64,000 nt of DNA from an uncultured bacterium (GTDB lineage Bacteria > Cyanobacteriota > Vampirovibrionia > Gastranaerophilales > Gastranaerophilaceae), in the NCBI GenBank assembly GCA_949296425.1, contig CASFPN010000023.1, positions 1-64,000 of the forward strand. The letters are read 5' to 3'. The position numbers were made by a program, and so were the translations under genes. The notes beneath the pieces were generated by a model. That model had not been told where the DNA came from. It made no database searches and saw nothing but the letters and a program-made list of their open reading frames with translations. Of the stretch, positions 9,101-40,859 are shown piece by piece. Each line of letters begins with the position of its first letter. Position 1 is the stretch's first letter.

Positions 9101-9112
9101 GGGGGGGGGGGG
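9101..9112. repeat. G12 homopolymer tract after T8, non-coding
   Basis: Twelve G follow eight T. Unlike the other tracts in the window it is not placed after an ATG leading into a prepilin. Flanking ATTGCGCTAT (left) and ATATCGCAAT (right) are near-perfect inverted repeats. Confidence 0.85.
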
Positions 9113-9346: not shown

Positions 9347-9374
9347 TTGCAAAATTAAAAAAAAAGTTTATAAT
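9347..9374 (+). promoter_or_regulatory. Promoter of the prepilin gene with C9 tract
   Basis: TTGCAA (9347-9352), 16 bases, TATAAT (9369-9374). An AGGAGG (9385-9390) and an ATG (9398) follow at correct distances, so expression is expected to start ahead of the C tract. Confidence 0.5.
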
Positions 9375-9424
9375 AATAAGAAAAAGGAGGATGAAAAATG
9401 TTAATATCACAAGCTTTCAGATTG

Positions 9425-9433
9425 CCCCCCCCC
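9425..9433 (+). repeat. C9 tract in prepilin leader (putative phase-variation switch)
   Basis: Nine C lie 27 bases after the ATG at 9398. With nine C this ATG reads into a stop at 9461. With 8 or 11 C it joins the FTLAEV frame. Confidence 0.7.
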
Positions 9434-9446
9434 GCAAGCGTGCCGC

Positions 9447-10181
9447 TTGACCCGTCATATTAGATGGTTTAAAAATTTTTACAACTATTCATTTGGTTTT
9501 ACACTTGCTGAAGTTTTAATTACTCTGGGAATTATCGGGGTAGTTGCAGCACTGACTTTGCCGACAGTAATCAATAATGCACAAAACAGACAGCTTGAAA
9601 CAGGATTAAAAAAGGGATATTCAACATTAGCACAAGCCTTAAAAATGTATGAACAAGAAAATGGAGAACCAATAAAAGGCTATGAAGAAGGTATACATTT
9701 AAAAAAATTTTTAATGACTTACGTAAATGTTGTTAAAGATTGTGGAAAAGGTACAGGAGATAAGTCCTGTATACCTAATAAAGCTTATGTAAATAATCCA
9801 GACAATTATAAAGCAGTTTACCAAAACTATAACGGTACGAATGAAATCCCTTATTCATTAATTGATGACGGGCAATTTGTAATTAATGACGGTATGCTGG
9901 TCTTAATAGAAAATGATGGCGCCACTGACAATAAACCATGCCTTTATATTTCTATAGATGTAAACGGTTACAATAAACGTCCAAATCGTTTGGGCCAAGA
10001 TTTATTTATGTTTCAGATAAATAATGAAGGGCAATTAGTTCCAATGGGTGCAAAAGATACTGACTTTTACAGTGAAAACGATGAATATTGCTCCAATGTA
10101 TCAAAATCAGAGGCTAACGGCTTAGGCTGTACAGCAAAAGCCCTTTCAGACAAAGATTTTTTCAAAAATCTTCCGCGCTAA
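9447..10181 (+). CDS. Prepilin-like protein, leader out of frame (phase-off state)
   Basis: 244 residues if started at TTG 9447. F-T-L-A-E-V-L-I-T-L-G-I-I-G-V-V-A-A-L-T begins at residue 18 after ...S-F-G, a proper type IV prepilin/T2SS cleavage site (Gly at -1, Glu at +5). The mature part has paired Cys, a D-V-N-G-Y-N-K-R-P-N-R-L-G-x-D core and a C-terminal G-C-T-x-K-A-L segment. No Shine-Dalgarno precedes the TTG. The expected start is ATG 9398 behind AGGAGG, which is out of frame because of the C9 tract. The protein is probably made only when tract length changes, or weakly from the TTG. Close relatives are at 32676 and 33624. Confidence 0.85.
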   Translation: MTRHIRWFKNFYNYSFGFTLAEVLITLGIIGVVAALTLPTVINNAQNRQLETGLKKGYSTLAQALKMYEQENGEPIKGYEEGIHLKKFLMTYVNVVKDCGKGTGDKSCIPNKAYVNNPDNYKAVYQNYNGTNEIPYSLIDDGQFVINDGMLVLIENDGATDNKPCLYISIDVNGYNKRPNRLGQDLFMFQINNEGQLVPMGAKDTDFYSENDEYCSNVSKSEANGLGCTAKALSDKDFFKNLPR

Positions 10182-10350: not shown

Positions 10351-10668
10351 ATGGCAACTACACAAAGACAAAGAATCAGAGTTTGTTTGAAAGCTTATGA
10401 TCACAAATTAATCGACGTATCTTCAGACAAAATCGTAGAAACAGCAAAAAGAACAGATGCTAAAGTAGCAGGCCCTATTCCTTTACCTACAAAAAGACGT
10501 ATATACTGCGTTTTGCGTTCACCCCACGTTGATAAAAAATCCCGTGAACATTTTGAAATGAGAACTCATAAACGTATTATTGATATATACGAACCTACTC
10601 AACAAACAGTTGAAGAATTAGGAAGATTAGACCTTCCTGCAGGTGTAGATATTGAAGTTAAACTTTAA
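10351..10668 (+). CDS. rpsJ: 30S ribosomal protein S10
   Basis: 105 residues with the S10 signature [10 protein letters not shown] at the N-terminus and the middle [24 protein letters not shown]. It binds 16S rRNA in the 30S head and, with NusB, takes part in antitermination. The gene opens the block here; fus and tuf are not upstream. AGGAATACAA precedes the ATG. A 316-base spacer separates it from rplC, very long for this junction. Confidence 0.97.
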
Positions 10669-10984
10669 TACTTTACTCTTTTGAAAATTAAATAAGCATT
10701 ATGCATGTAATGTGAACTACAACCGAACAGGGACAACAAAGGGGCAACCTTTGGGATAAACCTGAATCGGAACAGCAAAAAAGCTGTAGAGGTGAAAGTC
10801 CTCAAAAATTAGGTAAAGAAGTAGCGCTCGCAAGAGAAGACGAATTTTGGCAAGTGTGCCGTGTGGTGGAAGCCACCCAACACGCCCTAGCGAGAAACTT
10901 GATGCAACGGAATAAATTTGTAAAATTTATGTAGTGGAATGAAAAGTTTCGAGTTGCCAATAATTCGAGAAAGAAAGGACAAAT
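10669..10984 (+). other. 316-base spacer between rpsJ and rplC with structured, partly repeated sequence
   Basis: No gene. It is G-richer than the flanking genes and carries hairpins: GAGG-TGAAAGT-CCTC near 10781-10801 and GTGTGGTGG...CCACCCAACAC near 10861-10882. TTTCGAGTTGCCAATAATTC (10947-10966) recurs exactly at 12960-12979 before rplB. The GAGGTGAAAGTCCTC hairpin recalls bacterial group II introns, but no intron reverse transcriptase, domain V or boundaries are seen. It could be a leader RNA, a decayed element or a repeat family. Confidence 0.4.
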
Positions 10985-11620
10985 ATGACACTAGGTGTAA
11001 TAGGAAAGAAACTTGGAATGACTCAAATCTTTGATGATCAAGGTTTGGCAATTCCCGTAACTGTAATTAAAGTTGACCCGATTGTGGTAACTCAGGTAAA
11101 AACAATTGAAACTGACGGTTACAATGCAATTCAGGTAGGTACGATTGCAGCTAAAGAAAAACACTTAACTAAAGCTGAAATCGGCCACTTTAAGAAAAAT
11201 AATCTTGAAAACTTCAGACACCTTCAGGAATTCAGAGTTGACAATCCTCAAGATTATAAAGTAGGTGACAAAATTGAATTATCAGTTCTTGATAATGTCG
11301 AAAAAGTAGACGTTACAGGAAAATCAATAGGTAAAGGTTTCCAGGGTACCGTAAAAAGATGGAACTTCTCAAGAGGACCGATGGGACACGGTTCTAAAAA
11401 CCACAGAGAACCAGGTTCAATCGGGGCAGGTACAACTCCTTCTCGTGTTATTAAAGGCAAAAGAATGGCCGGTAACATGGGCAATGAAAGAGTTACAATA
11501 ACTAAATTGAAATTAGTTAAAGTTGATTCAGCAAACAGCTTAGTATTAATCAAAGGTTCAGTACCGGGCTGTGAAGGTAGATTAGTTACAATAGTTCCGA
11601 CAAGAACTAAGTGGAATTAG
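10985..11620 (+). CDS. rplC: 50S ribosomal protein L3
   Basis: 211 residues. G-V-I-G-K-K-L-G-M-T-Q-I-F at the start and the W-x-x-S-R-G-P-M-G-H-G-S-K-N-H-R-E-P-G-S-I-G loop (~119-140) that reaches the peptidyl transferase centre are diagnostic. An early 23S rRNA assembly protein. GAAAGGAC precedes the ATG. A 224-base spacer with GTGCCGTGTGAG-type repeat sequence follows before rplD. Confidence 0.97.
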   Translation: MTLGVIGKKLGMTQIFDDQGLAIPVTVIKVDPIVVTQVKTIETDGYNAIQVGTIAAKEKHLTKAEIGHFKKNNLENFRHLQEFRVDNPQDYKVGDKIELSVLDNVEKVDVTGKSIGKGFQGTVKRWNFSRGPMGHGSKNHREPGSIGAGTTPSRVIKGKRMAGNMGNERVTITKLKLVKVDSANSLVLIKGSVPGCEGRLVTIVPTRTKWN

Positions 11621-11844
11621 CGGATTTTGTGTAGGGTGCCGTGTGAGTGCGAAGCACGAACCCAACCCGAAGTAGCGAGGGCAAAAGCGAATGTCAGTAA
11701 AACGAAATGAGCGGCTTGTCCGAGTGAAACAATAATCCAAGATAAAATAACAGAACAAGTTTTAAAAATCCCGGGTTGCCATATAAAACGGAAAAATCCG
11801 AAAGAGGTAACAGGCTGTAGATTAGATATAAAGGAAAAACAAAA

Positions 11845-12471
11845 ATGTCAAAAGAAATATTAAGCACAACAGGTGAAAAATTAGGCGAAATCACATTGAA
11901 TGAAAACGTATTTGGTGTAGAACCTAATATCCATGTAATGCACCTCGCATTAAGAAGACAATTAAACAATGCACGCCAAGGTTCTGCCTGCGCTAAAACA
12001 AGAGCAGAAGTATCAGGCGGCGGCAAAAAACCCTGGAAACAAAAAGGTACAGGCAGAGCGAGAGCAGGTTCTCTTCGTTCACCATTGTTTGCAGGCGGCG
12101 GCGTAATCTTCGGACCAAAACCGAGAAGCTATGCATTTAATATGCCTCAAAAAGCAAGACAATTAGCTATCAAATCAGCATTGTCTGCAAGAAGCGAACA
12201 AATGGTTGTCGTAAAAGACTTCTCAACAATCACTGAACCTAAAACAAAATTAATGGTAAGTGCATTAAAATCATTAAAAGTTACAGGTAAAATTCTAATC
12301 GTTGCAGATGTTAAAGCTGAAGAAAACAAAAATTTAGAACTCTCAGCAAGAAACATCCCGAGCGTAAAAATCATTTTACCTTCAAATCTAAATGTAAAAG
12401 ATTTACTGGAAGCTGATTCTGTTGTAATTACCGAATCCGCTGTTAAAGATATAACAGAAAAGTTAAGCTAA
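11845..12471 (+). CDS. rplD: 50S ribosomal protein L4
   Basis: 208 residues. The exit-tunnel loop is clear: G-G-G-K-K-P-W-K-Q-K-G-T-G-R-A-R-A-G-S (~53-71) and P-L-F-A-G-G-G-V-I-F-G-P-K-P-R (~75-89). L4 of gamma-proteobacteria represses its own operon, but no E. coli-like S10 leader is visible here. AAAGGAAAAAC precedes the ATG. A dispersed palindrome sits in the 83-base spacer before rplW. Confidence 0.96.
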   Translation: MSKEILSTTGEKLGEITLNENVFGVEPNIHVMHLALRRQLNNARQGSACAKTRAEVSGGGKKPWKQKGTGRARAGSLRSPLFAGGGVIFGPKPRSYAFNMPQKARQLAIKSALSARSEQMVVVKDFSTITEPKTKLMVSALKSLKVTGKILIVADVKAEENKNLELSARNIPSVKIILPSNLNVKDLLEADSVVITESAVKDITEKLS

Positions 12472-12504
12472 TGCAGCCGAAGAAATGAGGCGTACAGAAG
12501 CTTA

Positions 12505-12526
12505 ATCCCGAACTTGTTTCGGGACC
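12505..12526. repeat. Dispersed palindrome between rplD and rplW
   Basis: ATCCCGAACTTGTTTCGGGA stem, same family as 9050. It has no T-run, so it need not stop transcription. Confidence 0.65.
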
Positions 12527-12554
12527 TCATTTAAAAATTATAAAGGAAAAAATA

Positions 12555-12863
12555 ATGAGTAAAGCAAGAACAAACACAGAAAAATTATATGATGTAATCA
12601 AAAAACCTATCATCACAGAAAAGTCAGTAGGTGCTACATCTATGGGACAATACACATTTGAAGTGGTAAAAGACGCTACAAAAGTTGAAATTGCTCAGGC
12701 AGTAGAATTGGCTTTCCCTGGAAGAAAGGTTAAAAAAGTAAGAACAGTTTATATGCCATCTCATGAAAAAAGAATGGGATATAAATTCGGAAGAACAGAT
12801 TCTTCAAAAAAAGCAATCGTAACAATAGAAGGCGATCCGATTGAAGAATTAATCGGTGCATAG
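12555..12863 (+). CDS. rplW: 50S ribosomal protein L23
   Basis: 102 residues with the family N-terminus I-K-K-P-I-I-T-E-K-S and the F-P-G-R-K-V-K-K-V-R-T block in the middle. L23 lies at the exit tunnel and is the docking site for trigger factor and SRP. AAAGGAAAAAATA precedes the ATG. The 190-base spacer before rplB holds a hairpin-rich repeat. Confidence 0.95.
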   Translation: MSKARTNTEKLYDVIKKPIITEKSVGATSMGQYTFEVVKDATKVEIAQAVELAFPGRKVKKVRTVYMPSHEKRMGYKFGRTDSSKKAIVTIEGDPIEELIGA

Positions 12864-12959
12864 CTGATTTTGACCAGTGCACCGTGTTAGCCCTGGTGAG
12901 CACAGTTTGAATGCAAGCTAGGAAAACCCGGCACATTTCAACTAGAAATTTTATAAAAA

Positions 12960-12979
12960 TTTCGAGTTGCCAATAATTC
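12960..12979 (+). repeat. Second copy of a 20-bp spacer repeat
   Basis: TTTCGAGTTGCCAATAATTC is identical to 10947-10966. Both lie 18-75 bases before the ribosome binding site of a large ribosomal protein gene (rplC and rplB), and both are preceded by a GTG-x-CCGTGT... hairpin region. Confidence 0.7.
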
Positions 12980-13053
12980 AAAATAATAAAAAAAGGGGCG
13001 GAAGGCATAAGTCCCAAGAAAAGTACAAAGCCAATTAAAGGAGAAAAATAAAA

Positions 13054-13881
13054 ATGGCAATCAGAAAAATAAACCCTACATCTCCAGGCCAAAGAGGGAT
13101 GACAAAAAGTGATTATCAAGAAATCACTTGCACAACTCCTGAAAAATCATTGTTAAAATCATTGAAAAAAACAGCAGGAAGAAATAATACCGGAAGAATT
13201 ACATGCCGTCATAAAGGTGGCGGTGTAAAGAGATCTTACCGTATAATAGATTTCAAGCGCGAAAAATTCGGCGTACCGGCAACTGTAAAAACTATTGAAT
13301 ACGACCCGAACAGAAACGTTAGAATTTCTTTAGTATATTACGCAGACGGTGAAAAAAGATATATCTTAACACCGGAAGGACTTAATGTAGGTGACGTAAT
13401 TGTTTCAGGGCCGGAAGCTCCTGTTCAGACAGGTAACGCTTTACCGCTTGAATTAATTCCGTTAGGTACAATTGTTCACAATATTGAACTTACACCAGGT
13501 CGTGGCGGCGTTATGGTTAGATCTGCAGGAAATGCAGCTCAGGTAATGGCTAAAGAAGGCAATTACGTAACAATTAAATTACCGTCTTCCGAAATGAGAA
13601 TGGTAAGAAAAGAATGCATGGCTACAATCGGTACTTTAGGTAACTCTGAATTCAAAAACCTCTCTATCGGTAAAGCCGGAAGAAAGCGTTACTTAGGAAT
13701 TAGACCAACAGTACGTGGTGTTACAATGAACCCTTGCGATCACCCTCACGGCGGTGGTGAAGGTAAAACAGGTCCCGGCGGACACCCGAAAACACCTTGG
13801 GGTAAACCGGCTCTGGGATATAAGACAAGAAAACTCGGAAAAGCTTCTGATAAATTAATTGTCAGAAGACGTAAAAAGTAA
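13054..13881 (+). CDS. rplB: 50S ribosomal protein L2
   Basis: 275 residues. [16 protein letters not shown] (~49-64) and the C-terminal R-G-V[14 protein letters not shown] (~220-236), whose His is important for peptidyl transfer, are diagnostic. The usual N-D of V-A-M-N-P-V-D-H-P is N-P-C-D here, with Cys replacing Val. AAAGGAGAAAAATA precedes the ATG. Confidence 0.97.
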
Positions 13882-13969
13882 TAATAGTGGTTGAAATATA
13901 AAAAAACATTCAACTATAAACTATTAAACTAAATGATAAACTACCAATAAAAATAAGAAAGGTAATAGA

Positions 13970-14251
13970 ATGGCACGTTCATTAAAAAAAGGTCCATACG
14001 TAGAAGAAGCTCTACAAAATAAAATTACAAAAATGAATGCAAACTCTGAAAAAAAAGTAATTAAAACTTGGTCCAGAGCATCTATGATTGTACCTGACAT
14101 GTTAGGACACACCATCGCTGTTCACAACGGGAAAACTCACGTTCCCGTGTATGTAACAGAACAGATGATCGGTCACAAATTAGGTGAGTTTGCTCCTACA
14201 AGACTTTTCAAAGGTCACGCAGGTTCAGACAAAACCGCTAAACGCAAATAA
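13970..14251 (+). CDS. rpsS: 30S ribosomal protein S19
   Basis: 93 residues. [11 protein letters not shown] at the start and the basic [23 protein letters not shown]-type region (written here in part) plus [10 protein letters not shown] near the C-terminus are diagnostic. It contacts S13 and 16S rRNA in the head. AAAGGTAATAGA precedes the ATG. Confidence 0.96.
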
Positions 14252-14272
14252 GGCAGCCGTATAAATCGGATC

Positions 14273-14314
14273 TGTCATCCCGAATGCAGGATTGAACTTC
14301 AGGTTTCGGGATCT
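14273..14314. repeat. Dispersed palindrome between rpsS and rplV
   Basis: GTCATCCCGAA...TTTCGGGATCT with an extended inner segment containing TTGAACTTCAGG. It fills much of the 103-base spacer. Confidence 0.65.
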
Positions 14315-14354
14315 CATAAAAAGAGATAACCAAGAAAAAATAAGGAAAATAACA

Positions 14355-14699
14355 ATGGAAGCTAAAGCAAGACAAACAGATATTAAAATGACAGCAAGAA
14401 AACTTCGCAGAGTAATCAACGAAGTTAGAGGAAAATCTGTCGTTGAAGCTCAGGATATGTTGCGTTTTATGCCTTATTTTGCAGCAAGAGTGGTTGAAAA
14501 GAACTTGAAAGCCGCTGTTGCAAATGCACAGGAAAAATACGGCGTAGGTGCTGAATCACTAAGAGTTTCAGAAATCTTCGCAGATGAAAGCGTTACATAC
14601 AAAAGAGCCAGAACAAGAGCGCAAGGTCGTATGTACAAAAGACTTAAACGCACTTCTCATTTGACATTAAAAGTGAGCGATATCACTGTTAAAAAGTAG
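14355..14699 (+). CDS. rplV: 50S ribosomal protein L22
   Basis: 114 residues. The start is ATG 14355, 7 bases after AAGGAAAAT; an in-frame ATG at 14292 would translate the palindrome and is rejected. T-A-R-K-L-R-R-V-I-N-E-V-R-G-K-S at the N-terminus and R-A-R-T-R-A-Q-G-R-M-Y-K-R-L-K-R-T at the C-terminal hairpin lining the exit tunnel are diagnostic. Confidence 0.95.
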   Translation: MEAKARQTDIKMTARKLRRVINEVRGKSVVEAQDMLRFMPYFAARVVEKNLKAAVANAQEKYGVGAESLRVSEIFADESVTYKRARTRAQGRMYKRLKRTSHLTLKVSDITVKK

Positions 14700-14723
14700 T
14701 AGTAATAACAAAAGGTAAATAAA

Positions 14724-15455
14724 ATGGGACAAAAAACACATCCAAAAGGATTTAGAATCGGTATAATTCAACCCTGGGTAAGCACATGGTTTGCTAAGGT
14801 TAAAGATTATAGCGAATTCGTTGCAGAAGATGCAAAAATCAGAAAATTTATTAAGAAAAAACTTTATACAGCAGGTATTTCTAAGATATTAATATCAAGA
14901 AAAGCACAAAATATAACCGTAACGGTTGTAACTGCTAAACCCGGCATAGTTGTAGGCAGAGGCGGTCAGGGTATTGATGATTTGAAAAAGGATGTTTCAA
15001 AATACATCGGTAAACCTGTTGTTATCAACGTTGTAGAAGTTGCAAGAATTGATGCGGATGCACAGCTTGTAGCAGAAGCAATTGCCCAGCAATTAGAAAA
15101 ACGTGTAGCTTTCAGACGTGCAATGAAGCAGGCAATGCAACGCACAATGAGAGCAGGGGCTCAAGGGATTAAAGTTATGGTATCAGGCCGTTTGGGCGGT
15201 GCTGAAATCGCTCGTTCGGAATGGGCAAAAGAAGGAAGAATTCCTCTTCAGACACTCAGAGCTGACGTAGATTACGGCTTCACCGAAGCTGATACTATTA
15301 TGGGTAAAATCGGTGTTAAGGTTTGGATTTTCAAAGGTGATTTGATGCCAGGCGAAAAAGCAGATCAAAACATTAAAGCTAAAAATGGAAAAGAAGGTTC
15401 AGACAAAGGGATGAGACGTCCAAGACGCAGAATTTCCACTGAAGCTGCCGAATAA
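14724..15455 (+). CDS. rpsC: 30S ribosomal protein S3
   Basis: 243 residues. [14 protein letters not shown] at the start, the KH domain with [12 protein letters not shown] (~73-84), and the C-terminal domain with [15 protein letters not shown] (~152-166). S3 lines the mRNA entry site and has helicase activity with S4. The 24-base spacer to rplV is one of the few normal ones in the block. Confidence 0.97.
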
Positions 15456-15491
15456 CAATTAAGTAAAGAAAAATAAATGGAGTAAAATAAA

Positions 15492-15911
15492 ATGTTACAG
15501 CCTAAAAAAACTAAATACCGCAAAATGATGAAAGGCAGAATGAAAGGCACTGAAACCAGAGGAACTAAATTAGAATTTGGCGGATATGCACTTCAAGCTG
15601 TTGAACCGGGCTGGATTACCAGCAGACAAATCGAGGCTGCACGTCGTGCGATGACTCGTGAAATCAAACGTGGCGGTAACGTTTGGATTAAAATATTCCC
15701 GGATAAACCAATTACTGCAAAACCTGCTGAAACCCGTATGGGTTCTGGTAAAGGTAACTTGGAATACTGGGTTGCAGTTGTTAAGCCAAACAGAATTTTG
15801 TTTGAACTTGATTACTTCGACAGAAGTGTTGCAGTTCATGCACTTGAATTGGCTGCTCAAAAACTGCCTATTAAAGTTAAAGTAGTAGAAAAAGCTAAGT
15901 TGGAAGCGTAA
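15492..15911 (+). CDS. rplP: 50S ribosomal protein L16
   Basis: 139 residues. [11 protein letters not shown]-x-K-G-R-M-K-G at the N-terminus, [11 protein letters not shown] (~57-67) and [15 protein letters not shown] (~82-96) are diagnostic. L16 organises the A-site region of 23S rRNA. A GGAG 8 bases upstream fits the start. Confidence 0.96.
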
Positions 15912-15940
15912 TAACGCTTAAAACTATAAGGGAAATAACG

Positions 15941-16138
15941 ATGAAACTAAATGAAATGCGCGAAAAATCAGTTGAAGAACTGCAGAGTGCAATAGTTGAT
16001 TGGAAAAAGGATTTGTTTAACTACAAATTGCAGCTTTCCACTCATAAATTGGAAAATACAGCATTGATTTCCAAAACAAAAAGACTTATAGCACAAGCAA
16101 AAACTGTTATAAAAGAAAAAGAAAGCGCTGCCGTATAA
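15941..16138 (+). CDS. rpmC: 50S ribosomal protein L29
   Basis: 65 residues forming two helices: [14 protein letters not shown] at the start, and [15 protein letters not shown] in the middle. Sits next to L23 at the tunnel exit. AAGGGAAATAACG precedes the ATG. Confidence 0.92.
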
Positions 16139-16166
16139 CGGAAGCTTTCAAAGGAGAAAAGACAAA

Positions 16167-16412
16167 ATGCCTAAAAAAGAAAAACAAGGTGTTGTAATCA
16201 GTAACAAAATGGATAAAACAATAGTAGTTAAAGTTGCAGATTATGAACCACACCCTAAATACAAAAAGATTATAGAATCAAATAAACACTATAAAGCTCA
16301 TGATGAAGGCAATGTTTGCAATGAAGGCGATGTTGTAAGAATCGTTGAATCAAGACCTATTTCAGGAGGCAAACGCTGGACATTAGCTGAAGTAGTTGAA
16401 AAAGCACGTTAA
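16167..16412 (+). CDS. rpsQ: 30S ribosomal protein S17
   Basis: 81 residues with the OB-fold pattern [23 protein letters not shown]-x(7)-K-A-H-D-E, and [15 protein letters not shown]. An early assembly protein of the 30S body. AAAGGAGAAAAGAC precedes the ATG. A 154-base spacer with palindromes follows. Confidence 0.95.
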
Positions 16413-16447
16413 TTCTTAATGAGCCTTAGCGAATTTAGAAGTAACGT

Positions 16448-16490
16448 GTCCTGAACTTGTTTCAGGATCTCCGAAACTTTGTTTCGGTCA
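16448..16490. repeat. Two adjacent dispersed palindromes between rpsQ and rplN
   Basis: TCCTGAACTTGTTTCAGGA is followed at once by CCGAAACTTTGTTTCGG. The first is the CTGAAC variant of the family; the second is shorter. Confidence 0.65.
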
Positions 16491-16566
16491 GCACCCGGAC
16501 ATCATTATATAAACTAATGCGCTGTCAACCAAGTAAAACATTCTTTAAAAATAAAGGAAAAGAACA

Positions 16567-16935
16567 ATGATACAACAAGAAACAAGACTAGAAGTAGCAG
16601 ATAATACAGGTGCAAAAGAACTTTTATGCATTCGCGTAATGGGAAGTTCTAACAAAAAATTTGCTGCAGTAGGCGATGAAATCGTTGCAGCAGTAAAAGA
16701 TGCTAACCCGAATATGCCTGTAAAAAAATCTGAAGTTGTTAGAGCTGTTGTAGTTAGAACCAAAGCTGATATCAAACGTGCAGACGGCTCTGTTATCAGA
16801 TTTGACGAAAATGCGGCAGTAATTATCAACAAAGACGGCAACCCGAGAGGAACACGTGTTTTCGGACCTGTTGCCCGTGAATTAAGAGACAAAGGATATA
16901 TGAAAATAGTTTCTTTGGCTCCGGAAGTTATTTAG
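16567..16935 (+). CDS. rplN: 50S ribosomal protein L14
   Basis: 122 residues. [19 protein letters not shown] at the start and [17 protein letters not shown] (~98-114) are diagnostic. L14 forms an intersubunit bridge and binds ribosome silencing factor. AAAGGAAAAGAACA precedes the ATG. Confidence 0.97.
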
Positions 16936-16972
16936 TTCTAGACTTGCTTTCAGCAAGTCGTAGAAATAAATA

Positions 16973-16995
16973 ATCCCGTGCTTGACACGGGATCT
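16973..16995. repeat. Dispersed palindrome between rplN and rplX
   Basis: ATCCCGTGCTTGACACGGGA: same frame as the CCCGAAC family but with a changed stem (CCCGTG/CACGGG), the pairing kept by compensating changes. A separate hairpin GACTTGC-TTTCA-GCAAGTC lies at 16940-16959. Confidence 0.6.
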
Positions 16996-17031
16996 CCTGA
17001 AAAGAAAATTAAAAACAAAAGGAATACAAAA

Positions 17032-17367
17032 ATGACAAAGAAAAAATTGCATGTAAAAAATACTGACAGAGTAATGATTATTGCAGGCAAAGATAAAGGA
17101 AAAGCCGGAAACATTAAAAAAGTAAATGTTTCAGAAGGCACTGTTACTGTTGAAGGTTTAAATATGGTAACCAAAGCCCAAAAACCTCAACCTATGGCAG
17201 GTATCCAAGGCGGATTAATCAAAATTGAAGCACCTGTAGATGCTTCTAATGTTATGGTTGTCTGCCCAGCTTGCGACAAACCGACAAGGATCAAACACGA
17301 AGTCGTTGACGGCAAAAAAGTGCGTGTTTGTAAAAAATGTGGTGAACAATTAGATGCTAAATTATAA
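17032..17367 (+). CDS. rplX: 50S ribosomal protein L24
   Basis: 111 residues. The KOW motif is in V-M-I-I-A-G-K-D-K-G-K-A-G-N-I-K-K-V (~13-30). C-P-A-C and C-K-K-C pairs in the C-terminal part (~79-103) form a zinc-ribbon-like arrangement seen in many bacterial L24. The ATG at 17032 follows AAAGGAATAC; an ATG at 16978 lies in the palindrome and is rejected. Initiates 50S assembly. Confidence 0.94.
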   Translation: MTKKKLHVKNTDRVMIIAGKDKGKAGNIKKVNVSEGTVTVEGLNMVTKAQKPQPMAGIQGGLIKIEAPVDASNVMVVCPACDKPTRIKHEVVDGKKVRVCKKCGEQLDAKL

Positions 17368-17412
17368 TTAGTGTTATAATTATGGTATCGCAGAATTAAG
17401 GAAACTAAGAAA

Positions 17413-17970
17413 ATGACAACTAAAACCAAAAATTTAAAAGCGAAATATCAAGAAGACGTAATTCCTGCATTAAAGGAAAAATTCGGCTATAAAAATGTTA
17501 ACCAGATACCTAAACTTCACAAAATCGTTTTGAATATGGGTGTTGGAGAAGCTTCTCATAACTCAAAAATTGCAGAAGCAATTGAAGCACAATTAACTAA
17601 AATAGCAGGACAAAAATGCGTAGTTACCAAAGCTAAAAAATCCATTGCATCTTATAAATTAAGAGAAGGAATGCCGGTTGGAGCCATGGTTACATTACGC
17701 GGTGAAAGAATGTATGACTTCTTACAAAAACTTATATGTGTGGTTCTTCCACGTATTCGAGACTTCAGAGGCGTAAGCCCGAAAAGTTTTGACGGCCGCG
17801 GCAACTATACATTAGGTTTGAAAGAACAAGCATTATTTCCTGAAATCAGCTATGAAGAAGTTGATTTAGTTAAAGGAATGAACGTATCAGTAATCACAAC
17901 TGCTGAAACTGATGATGAAGCACGTGAATTGTTGAGATTACTCGGAATGCCTTTCAAAGGATTAAAATAA
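17413..17970 (+). CDS. rplE: 50S ribosomal protein L5
   Basis: 185 residues. [18 protein letters not shown] (~29-46), [15 protein letters not shown] (~83-97) and the R-I-R-D-F-R-G-V-S block (~115-123) are diagnostic. L5 joins 5S rRNA to the central protuberance. AAGGAAACTAAGAA precedes the ATG. Confidence 0.97.
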
Positions 17971-18039
17971 AACACTATTTTGAACCTGTTTCAAAATTTA
18001 AATAAGATAACAATAAATAAAACATAAAAGGAGAAATTC

Positions 18040-18246
18040 ATGGCTAAAAAAGCGATGATAAACAAAGAACTTAGACGCGAAAAACTTGTTGCAGCCGGCA
18101 AATACCCTGCAGTAAGACTTCATAACAGATGCAGCATCTGCGGAAGACCTCACGGTTACCACAGAGATTTCGGTCTTTGCAGAATTTGTTTAAGAAAAAT
18201 GGCTCACGAAGGTTTACTTCCCGGCGTTACAAAAGCAAGCTGGTAG
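18040..18246 (+). CDS. rpsN: 30S ribosomal protein S14, zinc-binding type
   Basis: 68 residues. C31-S-I-C34 and C47-R-I-C50 form the zinc site of the short S14 form; [21 protein letters not shown] is the family core (given here by residue). G-V-T-K-A-S-W is the usual C-terminus. AAAGGAGAAATTC precedes the ATG. A 492-base gene-free stretch with a terminator follows. Confidence 0.95.
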
Positions 18247-18420
18247 GGAGCGTAGCGCAAGTGAGCTGAGGGCGACGGCTTTGCAGTGTCGGCTTGCGAG
18301 AACAAGACGAGCAGGCTAGACCTGTTAATAGCGAACGAGTAAGAGCCGCTCCACCCGCTACTCAGTTTTTGCATAAATCTTAAGGCAATTACTAAAGAAG
18401 GAACATAGTCGCTCCACCCG
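18247..18420. repeat. Long spacer repeat, copy 1 (after rpsN)
   Basis: Begins at the rpsN stop codon with GGAGCGTAGCGCAAGTGAGC and includes GCGAACGAGTAAGAGCCGCTCC. About 175 bases are closely repeated at 19137-19316 after rpsH. GGAGCG...CGCTCC at the ends of the inner part can pair. It has no coding frame of note. Confidence 0.75.
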
Positions 18421-18511
18421 TCAGTCGTACTGAGGCTAAGGAAGTTCAGTGATAAAAAGGGTAAGTGACTGAGAGGTGAAACGGCGGCGTTGCAGACCAG
18501 TAAATTTTACA

Positions 18512-18565
18512 ACAATAAAAAACCAAAGGACCGAGGGATGCGGTCTTTTTTGGTTTTATATTGTT
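18512..18565 (+). terminator. Intrinsic terminator-like hairpin between rpsN and rpsH
   Basis: Long imperfect stem: ACAATA...ACCAAAGGACCG pairs with CGGTCTTTTTTGGTTTTATA...TGT around a 7-base loop, with a T6 run in the descending arm. It suggests that at least part of transcription ends after rpsN, with a new start before rpsH. Confidence 0.5.
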
Positions 18566-18738
18566 AATAAAAATTAAAATTATTATTGAAAATTTAGTAT
18601 TTTTATGATAAATTAAGTATACAGTTCCAGACTGCTGAAACAAGCTTCAATATGAAGCAAAAATTAATTCAGTAAGTGGTGTAATAGTTAAATCAAGGAT
18701 ACTGCCTTTAACTGGAGGTAAGTCCGGAGGTATTTTAA
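18566..18738 (+). promoter_or_regulatory. Leader region of rpsH
   Basis: No gene. AT-rich first half that could hold a promoter, then a hairpin GCTTCA-ATA-TGAAGC (18645-18659) and a strong CCGGAGGTATTTTAA ribosome binding site. A GGAGGT...ACTGCCT pairing could fold around the site. No S8 target could be proven by eye. Confidence 0.3.
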
Positions 18739-19137
18739 ATGTCAATGACAGATCCTATAGCAGATATGCTAACAAGAATCCGAAATGCTAATCAGGTTTC
18801 ACACCCATCAGTTTCAATGCCGGCTTCTAAATTAAAAGTTCAATTGGCTAAACTTTTAAAAGAAGAAGGATTCATAACTGACTACAGCGTTAAAGATGAA
18901 GGTAAATTCAAGGTTTTGGAAATCGTTCTGAAATACGATGCAAAAAACAAACCTATCATTACTAAATTAGAAAGAATTTCTAAACCCGGTTTAAGAAACT
19001 ACAGCAAAGCCAAAAACCTTCCTAAAGTATTGGGTGGTATGGGTATTGCTATAGTTTCGACCAGCAAAGGTCTTTTAACAGACAGAAAAGCTCGCAAAGA
19101 AAACATTGGCGGAGAAGTTCTCTGCTACGTATACTAG
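18739..19137 (+). CDS. rpsH: 30S ribosomal protein S8
   Basis: 132 residues. [15 protein letters not shown] near the start and [18 protein letters not shown] near the C-terminus (the usual S-T-S-x-G-[LV]-M-x-x-x-E-A) are diagnostic. A central 16S rRNA binder and, in E. coli, the spc operon repressor. It is isolated by long repeat-bearing spacers on both sides (492 and 296 bases). Confidence 0.96.
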
Positions 19138-19316
19138 GAGCGTAGCGCAAGTGAGCTGAAGGCGATGGCTTTGCAGTGTCGGCTTGAGAGAATAAGACGA
19201 GCAGGCAAAGACTAGACACGTTAATAGCGAACGAGTAAGAGCCGCTCCAGCCGCCACTCAGGGGTTGCATAAATCTTTAAGGCAATGGCTAAAGAGGAGC
19301 TTAGCCGCTCCATCCA
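19137..19316. repeat. Long spacer repeat, copy 2 (after rpsH)
   Basis: Starts in the rpsH stop codon with GGAGCGTAGCGCAAGTGAGC, like copy 1 at 18247, and stays closely similar to GCCGCTCCA near 19316. The two copies bracket rpsH as a direct repeat, so recombination between them could delete or amplify rpsH. The rest of the 296-base spacer to rplF shows nothing else. Confidence 0.75.
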
Positions 19317-19433
19317 CTACTTAGAGTTTTATATAAATTGTAACTATATTGGCGGCAAAAATTTTTGTTTAAGTTCAATTGGTAGAAAAGCTTAAACATT
19401 GTACACAATATATACCAAAAGGAGAAAATTAAA

Positions 19434-19973
19434 ATGTCACGTATTGGTAAAAAACCTATCGAGATTCCGCAAGGAGTGGAAGTTAAAATAGAAGGCCACA
19501 CAGTTACTGTAAAAGGCCCTCACGGAACAGAAGTTGTTGAAATTCGTCCTGAAATTGAAGTAAAAGTTGAAGACAATCACATTCTACTCTCCAAAGTAGG
19601 TGATTCAAGAGAAACTGATGCTTTATACGGACTTTCAAGAACTTTAGTTGCAAATGCTGTTCACGGTGTAAAAGAACAGTTTGAAAAGAAATTAGAAATA
19701 CAAGGTGTTGGTTACCGTGCTAACATGGAAGGTAAAAACTTAAACCTTTCATTAGGTTATTCTCACCCTGTTATCGTTGAACCGCCTGAAGGAATTACAA
19801 TTTCCGTTGAAGCTAACACAAAAATCAGTGTAAAAGGTTCTAATAAACAAACTGTCGGCGATGTTGCAGCATTCATAAGATCTAAACGCCCGCCTGAAGT
19901 TTACAAAGGAAAAGGTGTTAGATACGAAGGCGAACACATTAGACGTAAAGCCGGCAAAGCAGGTAAAAAGTAA
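19434..19973 (+). CDS. rplF: 50S ribosomal protein L6
   Basis: 179 residues in two similar domains. S-R-I-G-K-K-P-I at the start, G-V-G-Y-R-A and N-L-S-L-G-Y-S-H-P-V at mid-length, and R-x-K-R-P-P-E-V-Y-K-G-K-G-V-R-Y near the C-terminus are diagnostic. Lies near the sarcin-ricin loop. AAAGGAGAAAATTAAA precedes the ATG. Confidence 0.97.
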   Translation: MSRIGKKPIEIPQGVEVKIEGHTVTVKGPHGTEVVEIRPEIEVKVEDNHILLSKVGDSRETDALYGLSRTLVANAVHGVKEQFEKKLEIQGVGYRANMEGKNLNLSLGYSHPVIVEPPEGITISVEANTKISVKGSNKQTVGDVAAFIRSKRPPEVYKGKGVRYEGEHIRRKAGKAGKK

Positions 19974-20106
19974 GATAGCCGTTGGCGAACGAAAGTGAGC
20001 CATATGAATATCTTATCCTCAACTTCAGGATTGCAAAACAAAGCCCGTATAAACCCTTGAAGTGGTTTTTCAAGAAGGTTTGGGTAAACAAGAAAGGAAA
20101 ATAAAA

Positions 20107-21985: not shown

Positions 21986-23147
21986 CTAATTCTACCTTAC
22001 GATTTTGAGATAAATTGTCGGTAATTATTGAAAATGCACCATTATATATACCAACAGAACACCCATTCGGCAGAGTAAACCATTTTCCATGATAAACAGC
22101 TGCGATTACACCTTCATCATTAATTGCATTACTTATCAATGTTAAATACCAGAGTGGATATGAATGATCATATTCTTTGAATACTTTAATGTTATTACTT
22201 TTAATAACATCTTCATACAATGAATCAGCACATTCCTGCAAATGCGTAGCTGTTGATGGACAAATATTGCTATGCATTGTGATTACGTAATAAGAGCTAA
22301 AAGGAATTCCTGCTTCCGCAATCAATTTTGACGTTGCATTAGATAAAATTGAATAAGTTTGTTTTAATTTCGTTTCCGTAACTTGTTTACGATAATTTGA
22401 TATTAATACAGACATTGTTAAAGCTGCAACCACACCGATGATGCCGAGGGTGATTAGAACCTCAGCCAGAGTAAACGCGGCTCGTTTTTTTAGTGAAGAG
22501 TGAAGTGTGTCATTACGAGGCAGCGTTCCGTTGCACCCGACACCTGGGTTTTGCATTGCATTTTCTATGTCATTACAAGGAGAATGCGACGCATTCGACG
22601 TAGTAATCTCATTCATATTGCAGCTATATTGCGATTGCGACGGTCGTTTCACTTCCTCGCAATAACAGAATTGCGCAGCTCCCTCTCCTATGGGAGAGGG
22701 TTGGGGTGAGGGCTGATTTGTTTTAGATATATTTTGCGATTGCGGATCAGCTTCGCTGTCCGCAATGACGGAAACAGATGTTTGTTCAGAAGAACAGAAG
22801 ATAGGAGGGCAGAAAGGCAGGTTAAATTTAGAAGCAAAGATGCCAAGAGGCATAGAGGCAAAGCTATTATCTATAATAAATTTTGTCCGAGTTTTACCAA
22901 AATCGCTATTGAAACTTGCCTGCTCTCCTGACTTCTTGACCTCCGGACATCCAACAAGCCCCTCACCTGTCCTGCGGACACCCTCTCCCCAATGGGGCGA
23001 GGGAACAATTTTTACGATACTTCTTAGTGCCTTAGTGACATAGTATCTTACGAGATTTAAATAGCTTGACTTCCTGACATCTTGACTTATCTCTAGCTCA
23101 GAAGTGCCCCCCCCCCGGGGTTGTTTAATAAATTTTAACATTTCCAT
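21969..23147 (-). CDS. Prepilin-like protein with 224-residue leader, G10 tract in frame (phase-on)
   Basis: 392 residues from ATG 23147, behind GGAGGTGTT. The F-T-L-A-E-V-L-I-T-L cleavage segment starts only at residue 225 (Ala at -1). The leader begins M-E-M-L-K-F-I-K-Q-P-R-G-G-G, encoded across a G10 tract, and then runs through dispersed repeats translated as P-H-W-G-E-G, P-S-P-I-G-E-G and similar, without a stop. The first ~110 bases of the leader match those of the gene at 39862. The mature part (168 residues) lacks the D-V-N-G...P-N-x-x-G-x-D core of its relatives and seems cut by a frameshift. Such a leader may not be processed; a later start is possible. Confidence 0.65.
   Translation of the reverse strand: MEMLKFIKQPRGGGTSELEISQDVRKSSYLNLVRYYVTKALRSIVKIVPSPHWGEGVRRTGEGLVGCPEVKKSGEQASFNSDFGKTRTKFIIDNSFASMPLGIFASKFNLPFCPPIFCSSEQTSVSVIADSEADPQSQNISKTNQPSPQPSPIGEGAAQFCYCEEVKRPSQSQYSCNMNEITTSNASHSPCNDIENAMQNPGVGCNGTLPRNDTLHSSLKKRAAFTLAEVLITLGIIGVVAALTMSVLISNYRKQVTETKLKQTYSILSNATSKLIAEAGIPFSSYYVITMHSNICPSTATHLQECADSLYEDVIKSNNIKVFKEYDHSYPLWYLTLISNAINDEGVIAAVYHGKWFTLPNGCSVGIYNGAFSIITDNLSQNRKVELVGGKN
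23007..23116 (-). repeat. 110-bp prepilin leader repeat, copy 1, ending in C10
   Basis: Differs from 40750-40859 at about 10 of 110 positions, same length, same orientation, both ending in ten C on the plus strand. It encodes K-S-S-Y-L-N-L-V-R-Y-Y-x-T-K-A-L-R-S-I-V (20 residues). Confidence 0.85.
23107..23116 (-). repeat. G10 (sense) tract in prepilin leader
   Basis: Ten G on the coding strand, 31 bases after ATG 23147. The tract is in frame with the distant FTLAEV segment at ten, and out of frame at nine or eleven. Confidence 0.75.
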
Positions 23148-33623: not shown

Positions 33624-34463
33624 GTGCCCCCCCCCCGCAAACATGTCCACATATCAAGGATTTTGGGATTAAGCATTTACAAATTTTGTAAAAAATGCTA
33701 TACTAGTGACATGATACATCACTTTAATAAGAGTTTTAATTTAACAAAAATTTGCATTCCTAGGCCTGAAAGTACTATGCACTTGGTCTACTCCAACAAT
33801 ATTCGTCATTGCGCGTTTACCTTAGCAGAAGTTCTTATTACCCTTGGAATTATCGGTGTTGTTGCTGCATTAACTTTACCTGCGGTAATTAATAACACAC
33901 AAAATAAGCAGCTTGAAGCCGGACTAAAAAAAGGAGCATCTGAAATTGCTCAAGCTCTAATTATGCATCAGGCAGATACAGGTAATACAATTACTTCAAA
34001 CACTGAAAAATGGATTTTAAAATCCGCTATTAAGGATTACTTTAAAGGAAGCGAAGATTGCGGCTTCGGTTCACAAGATTTAGCAACTGCATGCGTCGGT
34101 AATAATTCAGATATTTATAAAAATTTTAACAATACAGCGACAATAAACTTGGGCTATTTTGATGACGGACAAATTATATTGCCCGATGGGGTATTTATTG
34201 CTATTGAAAATTCTACACCAGGAAGAGTTTATATTTCAATTGATGTAAACGGTTTTAAGAAAAAACCAAACAGGCTCGGTCATGATTTATTCATGTTCGA
34301 AATTGATAATGAAGGAAAACTTTTGCCTATGGGAGCCAAAGATACTGACTATTACAGCGAAAATGATACTTATTGTTCTCATTCTTCAAATAGTAATATG
34401 AATGGAGCTGCATGCACCCAAAAAGCATTAACTGATTCAAAATTCTGGAAAAATTTACCTTGA
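33624..34463 (+). CDS. Prepilin-like protein, leader out of frame (phase-off)
   Basis: 279 residues if started at GTG 33624, inside the tract region and without a ribosome site. F-T-L-A-E-V-L-I-T-L-G-I-I-G-V-V-A-A-L-T starts at residue ~66 after Cys-Ala. ATG codons at ~33711 and 33777 are later alternatives but also lack good sites. The intended start is probably ATG 33601, giving a ~75-residue leader that starts M-L-F-R-E-A-L-K. The mature part has D-V-N-G-F-K-K-K-P-N-R-L-G-H-D and ends K-F-W-K-N-L-P. A close paralogue of 32676. Confidence 0.82.
   Translation: MPPPRKHVHISRILGLSIYKFCKKCYTSDMIHHFNKSFNLTKICIPRPESTMHLVYSNNIRHCAFTLAEVLITLGIIGVVAALTLPAVINNTQNKQLEAGLKKGASEIAQALIMHQADTGNTITSNTEKWILKSAIKDYFKGSEDCGFGSQDLATACVGNNSDIYKNFNNTATINLGYFDDGQIILPDGVFIAIENSTPGRVYISIDVNGFKKKPNRLGHDLFMFEIDNEGKLLPMGAKDTDYYSENDTYCSHSSNSNMNGAACTQKALTDSKFWKNLP
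33627..33636 (+). repeat. C10 tract in prepilin leader
   Basis: Ten C, 26 bases after ATG 33601, which has AGGAGG (33587-33592) eight bases before it. At ten C the frame runs to a stop near 33670. At 8 or 11 C it enters the FTLAEV frame. TTGACA at 33546 may be the -35 box. Confidence 0.75.
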
Positions 34464-38542: not shown

Positions 38543-38552
38543 CCCCCCCCCC
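38543..38552 (-). repeat. G10 (sense) tract in remnant leader
   Basis: Ten G on the coding strand 30 bases after ATG 38582. Placed like the tracts at 23107 and 40850. Confidence 0.75.
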
Positions 38553-40803: not shown

Positions 40804-40859
40804 ATAGCTTGACTTCTTGACCTCTTGATTTCTGCCTAGCTCAGGAGTGCCCCCCCCCC
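40750..40859 (-). repeat. 110-bp prepilin leader repeat, copy 2, ending in C10
   Basis: About 91% identical to 23007-23116 and equal in length. Contains the C10 tract at 40850-40859. Confidence 0.85.
40850..40859 (-). repeat. G10 (sense) tract in prepilin leader
   Basis: Ten G on the coding strand, 27 bases after the ATG at about 40886. Off at ten; on at 8 or 11. Confidence 0.75.

Follow-up and report, generated by a model that had tools for sequence, protein, structure and literature searches.

The stretch of Gastranaerophilales DNA analysed here (64,000 nt, hereafter the window) contains a pilin-like gene with a puzzling 5' region: a promoter-like sequence, a ribosome site and an ATG are followed by a run of nine C, and the reading frame that opens at the ATG ends shortly after the run. 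An earlier, sequence-only reading of the locus had described it as a switch in the off position. The question is whether this is so, and what such a run is for. The answer favoured here, with a probability of about 0.58, is that the C9 run belongs to a genus-wide repertoire of prepilin-like genes kept off by default through slippage phase variation. The source genome (G000; 2.0 Mb, 46 contigs) belongs to the Gastranaerophilales, which are non-photosynthetic relatives of cyanobacteria, and its congeners carry the names Gastranaerophilales or 'Fusobacterium sp. CAG:439'.

The C9 run and its reading frames

Direct reading placed the two promoter elements, the Shine-Dalgarno sequence, the ATG and the C9 run exactly where they had been reported (Table 1). 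The TTGCAA-16-TATAAT pair scores 10/12 as a promoter, but is weak evidence by itself because nine promoter-like matches occur around the gene, compared with 5.8 +/- 2.4 in shuffled sequence. With nine C, the frame of ATG 9398 reads MLISQAFRLPPPASVPLDPSY* and ends at TAG 9461, so the OFF state had been correctly recognised. With 8 or 11 C, it reads MLISQAFRLPPP(P)QACRLTRHI...GFTLAEV... and is fused to GFTLAEVLITLGIIGVVAALTLPT (from 9495), and lengths of 7, 10 and 12 C all lead to an early stop. The proposal that 8 C joins the pilin frame is thus sound but incomplete, as 11 C is ON too and the family norm of 10 is, like 9, OFF. The focal run is one base below that norm, and the closest ON length is 8 from C9 and 11 from C10. 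The C9 was seen in a single assembly, and may be either real variation or a homopolymer base-calling error. TTG 9447 is the sole ATG, GTG or TTG in the pilin frame ahead of the prepilin motif, and no Shine-Dalgarno sequence was found at it, in agreement with the earlier view that there is no credible alternative start.

Table 1. Features of the focal locus and other C/G runs in pilin-like genes of the window
Feature	Position	Strand	Basis or remark
-35-like TTGCAA	9347..9352	+	read from sequence
-10-like TATAAT	9369..9374	+	16-nt spacer after TTGCAA
Shine-Dalgarno AGGAGG	9385..9390	+	read from sequence
Start ATG	9398-9400	+	read from sequence
OFF-frame ORF of 21 codons at nine C, ATG 9398 to TAG 9461-9463	9398..9463	+	frame reading
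AGCT of conserved element, 13 nt upstream of C run	9412..9415	+	sequence and element statistics
C9 tract (family norm 10; ON at 8 or 11)	9425..9433	+	sequence, frame reading
Pilin-like ORF callable from TTG 9447 (N_methyl prepilin), 244 codons	9447..10181	+	ORF and profiles
Prepilin cleavage/methylation motif GFTLAEV	9495..9515	+	PF07963, TIGR02532
C10 on +, G10 in minus-strand pilin-like gene	23107..23116		ON at 10, flank altered (C10-GGGG)
C10 in plus-strand pilin-like gene	33627..33636	+	OFF at 10, ON at 8/11
C10 on +, G10 in minus-strand pilin-like gene	38543..38552		would need 8/11
C10 on +, G10 in minus-strand pilin-like gene	40850..40859		would need 8/11

The predicted product is a prepilin-like protein. 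It matched PF07963 (24.2 bits) and TIGR02532 (20 bits) above cut-off, both covering the N-terminal GFxxxE cleavage/methylation segment of type IV prepilin-like proteins, and the gspG and ComGE models gave matches below cut-off only. Upstream of the gene, an intergenic T8-G12 homopolymer pair (window 9101-9112) lacks the motif described below, and is oriented opposite to the five motif-bearing runs of the contig.

Tract-bearing prepilin genes of the genus

About 95 pilin-like matches and 93 C/G runs of at least 8 bases were found in G000, and in at least 57 of its pilins a C or G run closely follows an ATG that has a ribosome site. The usual layout is a ribosome site and ATG, some 21-33 nt, about ten C or G, and then the pilin frame. 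Run lengths are bimodal, with many G/C runs at 4-6, none at 7 and a peak at 10; this gap and peak, together with the same placement in dozens of pilin genes, mean that the focal run is not a chance occurrence. In the other congeneric genomes the length is nearly always exactly 10 (33 of 34 pilin tracts in G004, 20 of 21 in G007), and across species of the genus lengths of 9-12 occur, most being exactly 10, with 15 of 198 alleles ON. Statistics on length are drawn from G000, G004 and G007, because a set of the other loci had been chosen for C10. The motif around the run was present in most congeneric genomes and essentially absent from other genera of the order. One congener (G021) showed no run among the matches listed, with a scan pattern that misses some runs, and no viral or plasmid copies were found.

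Assembly artefact as the sole cause was rejected, since the length is exactly 10 in separately assembled congeners and the non-motif runs of G000 span 8-12, and loss of mismatch repair was discarded because mutS1 and mutL are both present in the genome. Among G000 contigs C3, C5, C17, C21, C27, C29 and C31, several have their end 150-200 bases away from a tract; near-identical repeats in the 5' regions of the pilins are the probable cause, and such breaks may hide further pilin copies.

Frame state of the tracts

For the genus, 198 distinct pilin tracts with an upstream ribosome site and ATG were tabulated, and 183 of these alleles were OFF. The focal gene, which had been singled out as the clearest off-state example, is therefore not exceptional. 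All tracts were OFF in G004 (34/34) and G007 (21/21), and seven of 57 were ON in G000, by way of 11 C/G or of flank changes. OFF frames reach a stop at a median of 8 nt past the run.

Of 185 ten-base runs, 171 need 11 (or 8) bases for the ON state (residue 2), where 84 would be expected if the phases of the two flanks were independent; the binomial P of ~1e-42 for this frame offset is overstated, as the genes are related. The (left, right) flank phases of the 171 were (0,1) in 101, (1,0) in 58 and (2,2) in 12, and common descent of a single frame was rejected because the one offset is reached by three phase combinations. Apart from selection for a deficit of one base, little would explain such compensation between flanks. 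The downstream ORFs are under purifying selection (median dN/dS 0.16, 39 pairs), which means that they are expressed at some time.

Slipped-strand contingency loci are recognised by a homopolymer that lies between start and body and sets the frame by its length, and by an intact downstream ORF under selection; both were found here. So was the combination of a fixed slippery run and a constant offset that is expected of programmed transcriptional slippage or -1 ribosomal frameshifting.

Strand polarity and the shared motif

The most unusual features of the tracts are their strand polarity and a shared DNA motif. Pairs of pilin tracts within G000 contigs had the same tract orientation in 88 of 88 cases, with the genes themselves in the same orientation in 60 of 88. 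In G007, which has long contigs, two changes of tract orientation fall at reversals of GC skew and third-codon-position skew, and G lies on the G-rich strand in 27/27 runs of at least 9 bases. As a result of this polarity, the runs are of C (encoding proline) in genes on one strand and of G (glycine) in genes on the other. The sole invariant direction is that of the chromosome strand, not of transcription, and the polarity with its skew-matched flips points to a process linked to DNA replication. Short G/C runs share the bias weakly, with G on the G-rich strand in a fraction of 0.59 at length 3 and 0.77 at length 5. GC skew alone was rejected as the cause, since this short-run bias, when extrapolated, falls short of complete polarity over so many sites, although it explains part of it. 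Genes overall prefer the G-rich strand, which carries G10. The ribosomal protein operon (window 10351-20000) lies on the C-rich strand, that is, in C-tract sense, in G000, G001, G004 and G007, and on the other strand in G010. Its position on the C-rich strand would be unusual if the G-rich strand were leading; equating the two is not proven, because four of the five genomes compared have the operon on the C-rich strand.

The motif can be written AGCY-N7-TG-C10-GA. On the C strand, AGCY starts 11-14 nt before the run in 19/27 C-type and 54/60 G-type genes, compared with 0/27 and 1/60 in control windows and 2 and 2 at the mirror position; purines at -7 to -4, TG before the run and GA after it make up the remainder. 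AGCY accompanies proline-coding and glycine-coding runs alike, but C-type genes have it on the side of the ATG and G-type genes on that of the pilin body; it also occurs at several spacings, hence in varied codon phases. This swap of sides and the varied phases make it look like a DNA signal rather than a protein signal. In G000, 58 of 65 motif-bearing runs are exactly 10 bases long, against 13 of 25 other runs. To call the focal run a switch is, then, to overstate what had been seen: the OFF frame stands, but a switch implies an observed change in length, and motif-bearing tracts are exactly 10 across species.

Comparison with known systems and proposed mechanism

Default-off slippage phase variation is favoured because the closest documented mechanism is the pilus switch of Bifidobacterium breve UCC2003 (PMC9187656). 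In its sortase-dependent pilus loci bbr_0113 (G11) and bbr_1889 (G10), the G run lies near the 5' end of the first pilin gene, is OFF in the reference and is turned ON by replication slippage; ON variants were enriched in mice, and at one locus 93% of the population was at G10 (PMC9187656). There too, in a gut commensal, a G run stands between a pilin ORF that lacks a usable downstream start and the upstream ORF that has the promoter, ribosome site and start (PMC9187656). The differences are that B. breve reaches ON by single-base slippage (-1+3n), and here ON lies at +1/-2; that it has one or two such loci per genome, for sortase pili, compared with dozens of type IV-like prepilin genes; and that the present runs may be C or G, share a flanking motif and keep a fixed chromosome-strand polarity. 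The comparison suggests phase variation of the Bifidobacterium kind, probably on a far larger scale.

Campylobacter jejuni NCTC11168 has 29 polyG/polyC loci of seven or more repeats (PMC4965091). Like the present tracts, these are long G/C runs inside surface-structure genes, in which the frame sets ON or OFF. The C. jejuni contingency loci show mixed ON and OFF states and belong to unrelated gene families, and they are not known to have strand polarity; the tracts described here belong to one gene family with one common offset, in a genome with MutS and MutL. Neisseria also combines pilus genes, a poly-G frame switch (pilC) and recombination among many pilin copies (antigenic variation of pilE), but with one or two expressed pilin loci plus silent cassettes, whereas here each gene has its own start, ribosome site and switch.

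Under the favoured reading, rare replication slippage would change C10 by +1 to 11 or by -2 to 8, and the focal C9 by -1 to 8 or by +2 to 11, and so join the frames in a few cells, with the result that each cell would display a small, randomly drawn part of a large pilin library. The slippage rate might be set, and the run kept near 10, by the conserved flank and the fixed orientation of the run to the replication strand. What the genome appears to contain is an extensive library of surface-fibre genes whose default state is OFF. If so, a common but little-studied gut lineage holds its largest surface-protein family as a default-off library with dozens of one-base switches, an extension of what is known from Bifidobacterium, with its one or two pilus switches, and the polarity and motif offer a natural experiment on replication direction and homopolymer stability. 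In ordinary annotation, nearly all of these pilins will either be given a false start or appear as broken genes.

Some observations sit uneasily with slippage. Plain slippage would not predict that motif-bearing runs are so uniform in length, nor that 9- or 12-base alleles, although also OFF, are rare. The genome encodes MutS and MutL, which some highly phase-variable bacteria lack, and selection for OFF alone could not separate ON-at-11 from ON-at-9/12, yet the count is 171 to 6.

Alternative explanations

The exact length of 10 in several species, the deficit of one base rather than two and the rarity of 9- or 12-base OFF alleles are what would be expected of programmed expression, in which a slipping RNA polymerase adds one base to part of the transcripts, or a -1 shift of ribosomes takes place on CCC/GGG codons, and every cell makes each of the prepilins in some amount from unchanged DNA. 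Polymerase slippage also agrees with a fixed run about as long as the RNA-DNA hybrid. Programmed expression does not, however, predict tracts oriented by chromosome strand irrespective of the direction of transcription, nor a motif upstream of the run in C-type and downstream in G-type transcripts, and seven G000 alleles are already ON at the DNA level; a study of bacterial transcriptional slippage analysed A/T runs, not G/C (PMC1088944). We regard this explanation as unlikely. The AGCY-N7-TG-C10-GA element might instead be a dedicated replication-polarised site at which a specific process makes single-base changes and so turns on one prepilin or another. A lagging-strand primer of 11-14 nt begun at AGCY, for instance, would end just at the run. 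This would amount to a targeted frame-editing system for the whole pilin repertoire, and we consider it decidedly doubtful. At least as doubtful is a role of the element in pilin recombination, as a polar site on the DNA of the Chi-like or fork-pausing kind, with the frame effect secondary. Such a site would account for an element that is conserved on the DNA whichever strand is coding and that keeps one orientation to the replication-associated strand, and the pilin genes are indeed mosaic: L070 (G-type) and L099 (C-type) are 88% identical over 404 nt from the prepilin motif, with unrelated 5' modules. It has no need, though, of a fairly constant distance after the ATG or of a one-base offset kept by compensating phases, and the sites cluster at pilin starts instead of being scattered over the genome.

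Two further explanations are very improbable. The runs could have arisen by mutation under strand skew, without function, in genes that are decaying, and the bias of G runs to the G-rich strand does grow with length even among short runs, but the low dN/dS, the placement shortly after the ATG, the frame compensation and the gap and peak in run length all disfavour this. Translation could also begin downstream of the tract, leaving it in a leader with no role in the frame, and TTG 9447 does open the long pilin-like ORF. That codon, however, has no ribosome site, some OFF alleles have less than 30 nt between tract and prepilin motif, and in 152 OFF alleles no pilin-frame start has a ribosome site; 74 have no ATG, GTG or TTG in the pilin frame at all, and so must be translated through the run.

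Tracts outside the pilins, and prepilin leaders

C10 is in frame at 10 in two non-pilin genes, so that this length has the opposite frame consequence outside the pilins. One is a membrane glycosyltransferase-like gene (L064, G000:C17:36599), where the in-frame C10 is conserved in L323 (G008); the two sequences are 90-100% identical in the 60 nt around the run and ~65-75% identical in most of the nearby sequence. The other is a glycogen-synthase-like gene, the orthologues of which have CCCC at that place. Among other non-pilin loci, C10/G10 runs were also seen at the start of a HipA-like gene (L042, G000:C6:17430) and between CMP-sugar-synthetase-like ORFs (L087, G000:C40:10642), all named by eye, and these two are possible further phase-variable loci. 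Between tract and prepilin motif, leaders of 20 to 640 nt were observed (L052, L057, L091 and the window near 23107), with translated repeat elements (NLFQDL-, PSPQPSPIGEG-like), and prepilin leaders seem to tolerate in-frame insertions.
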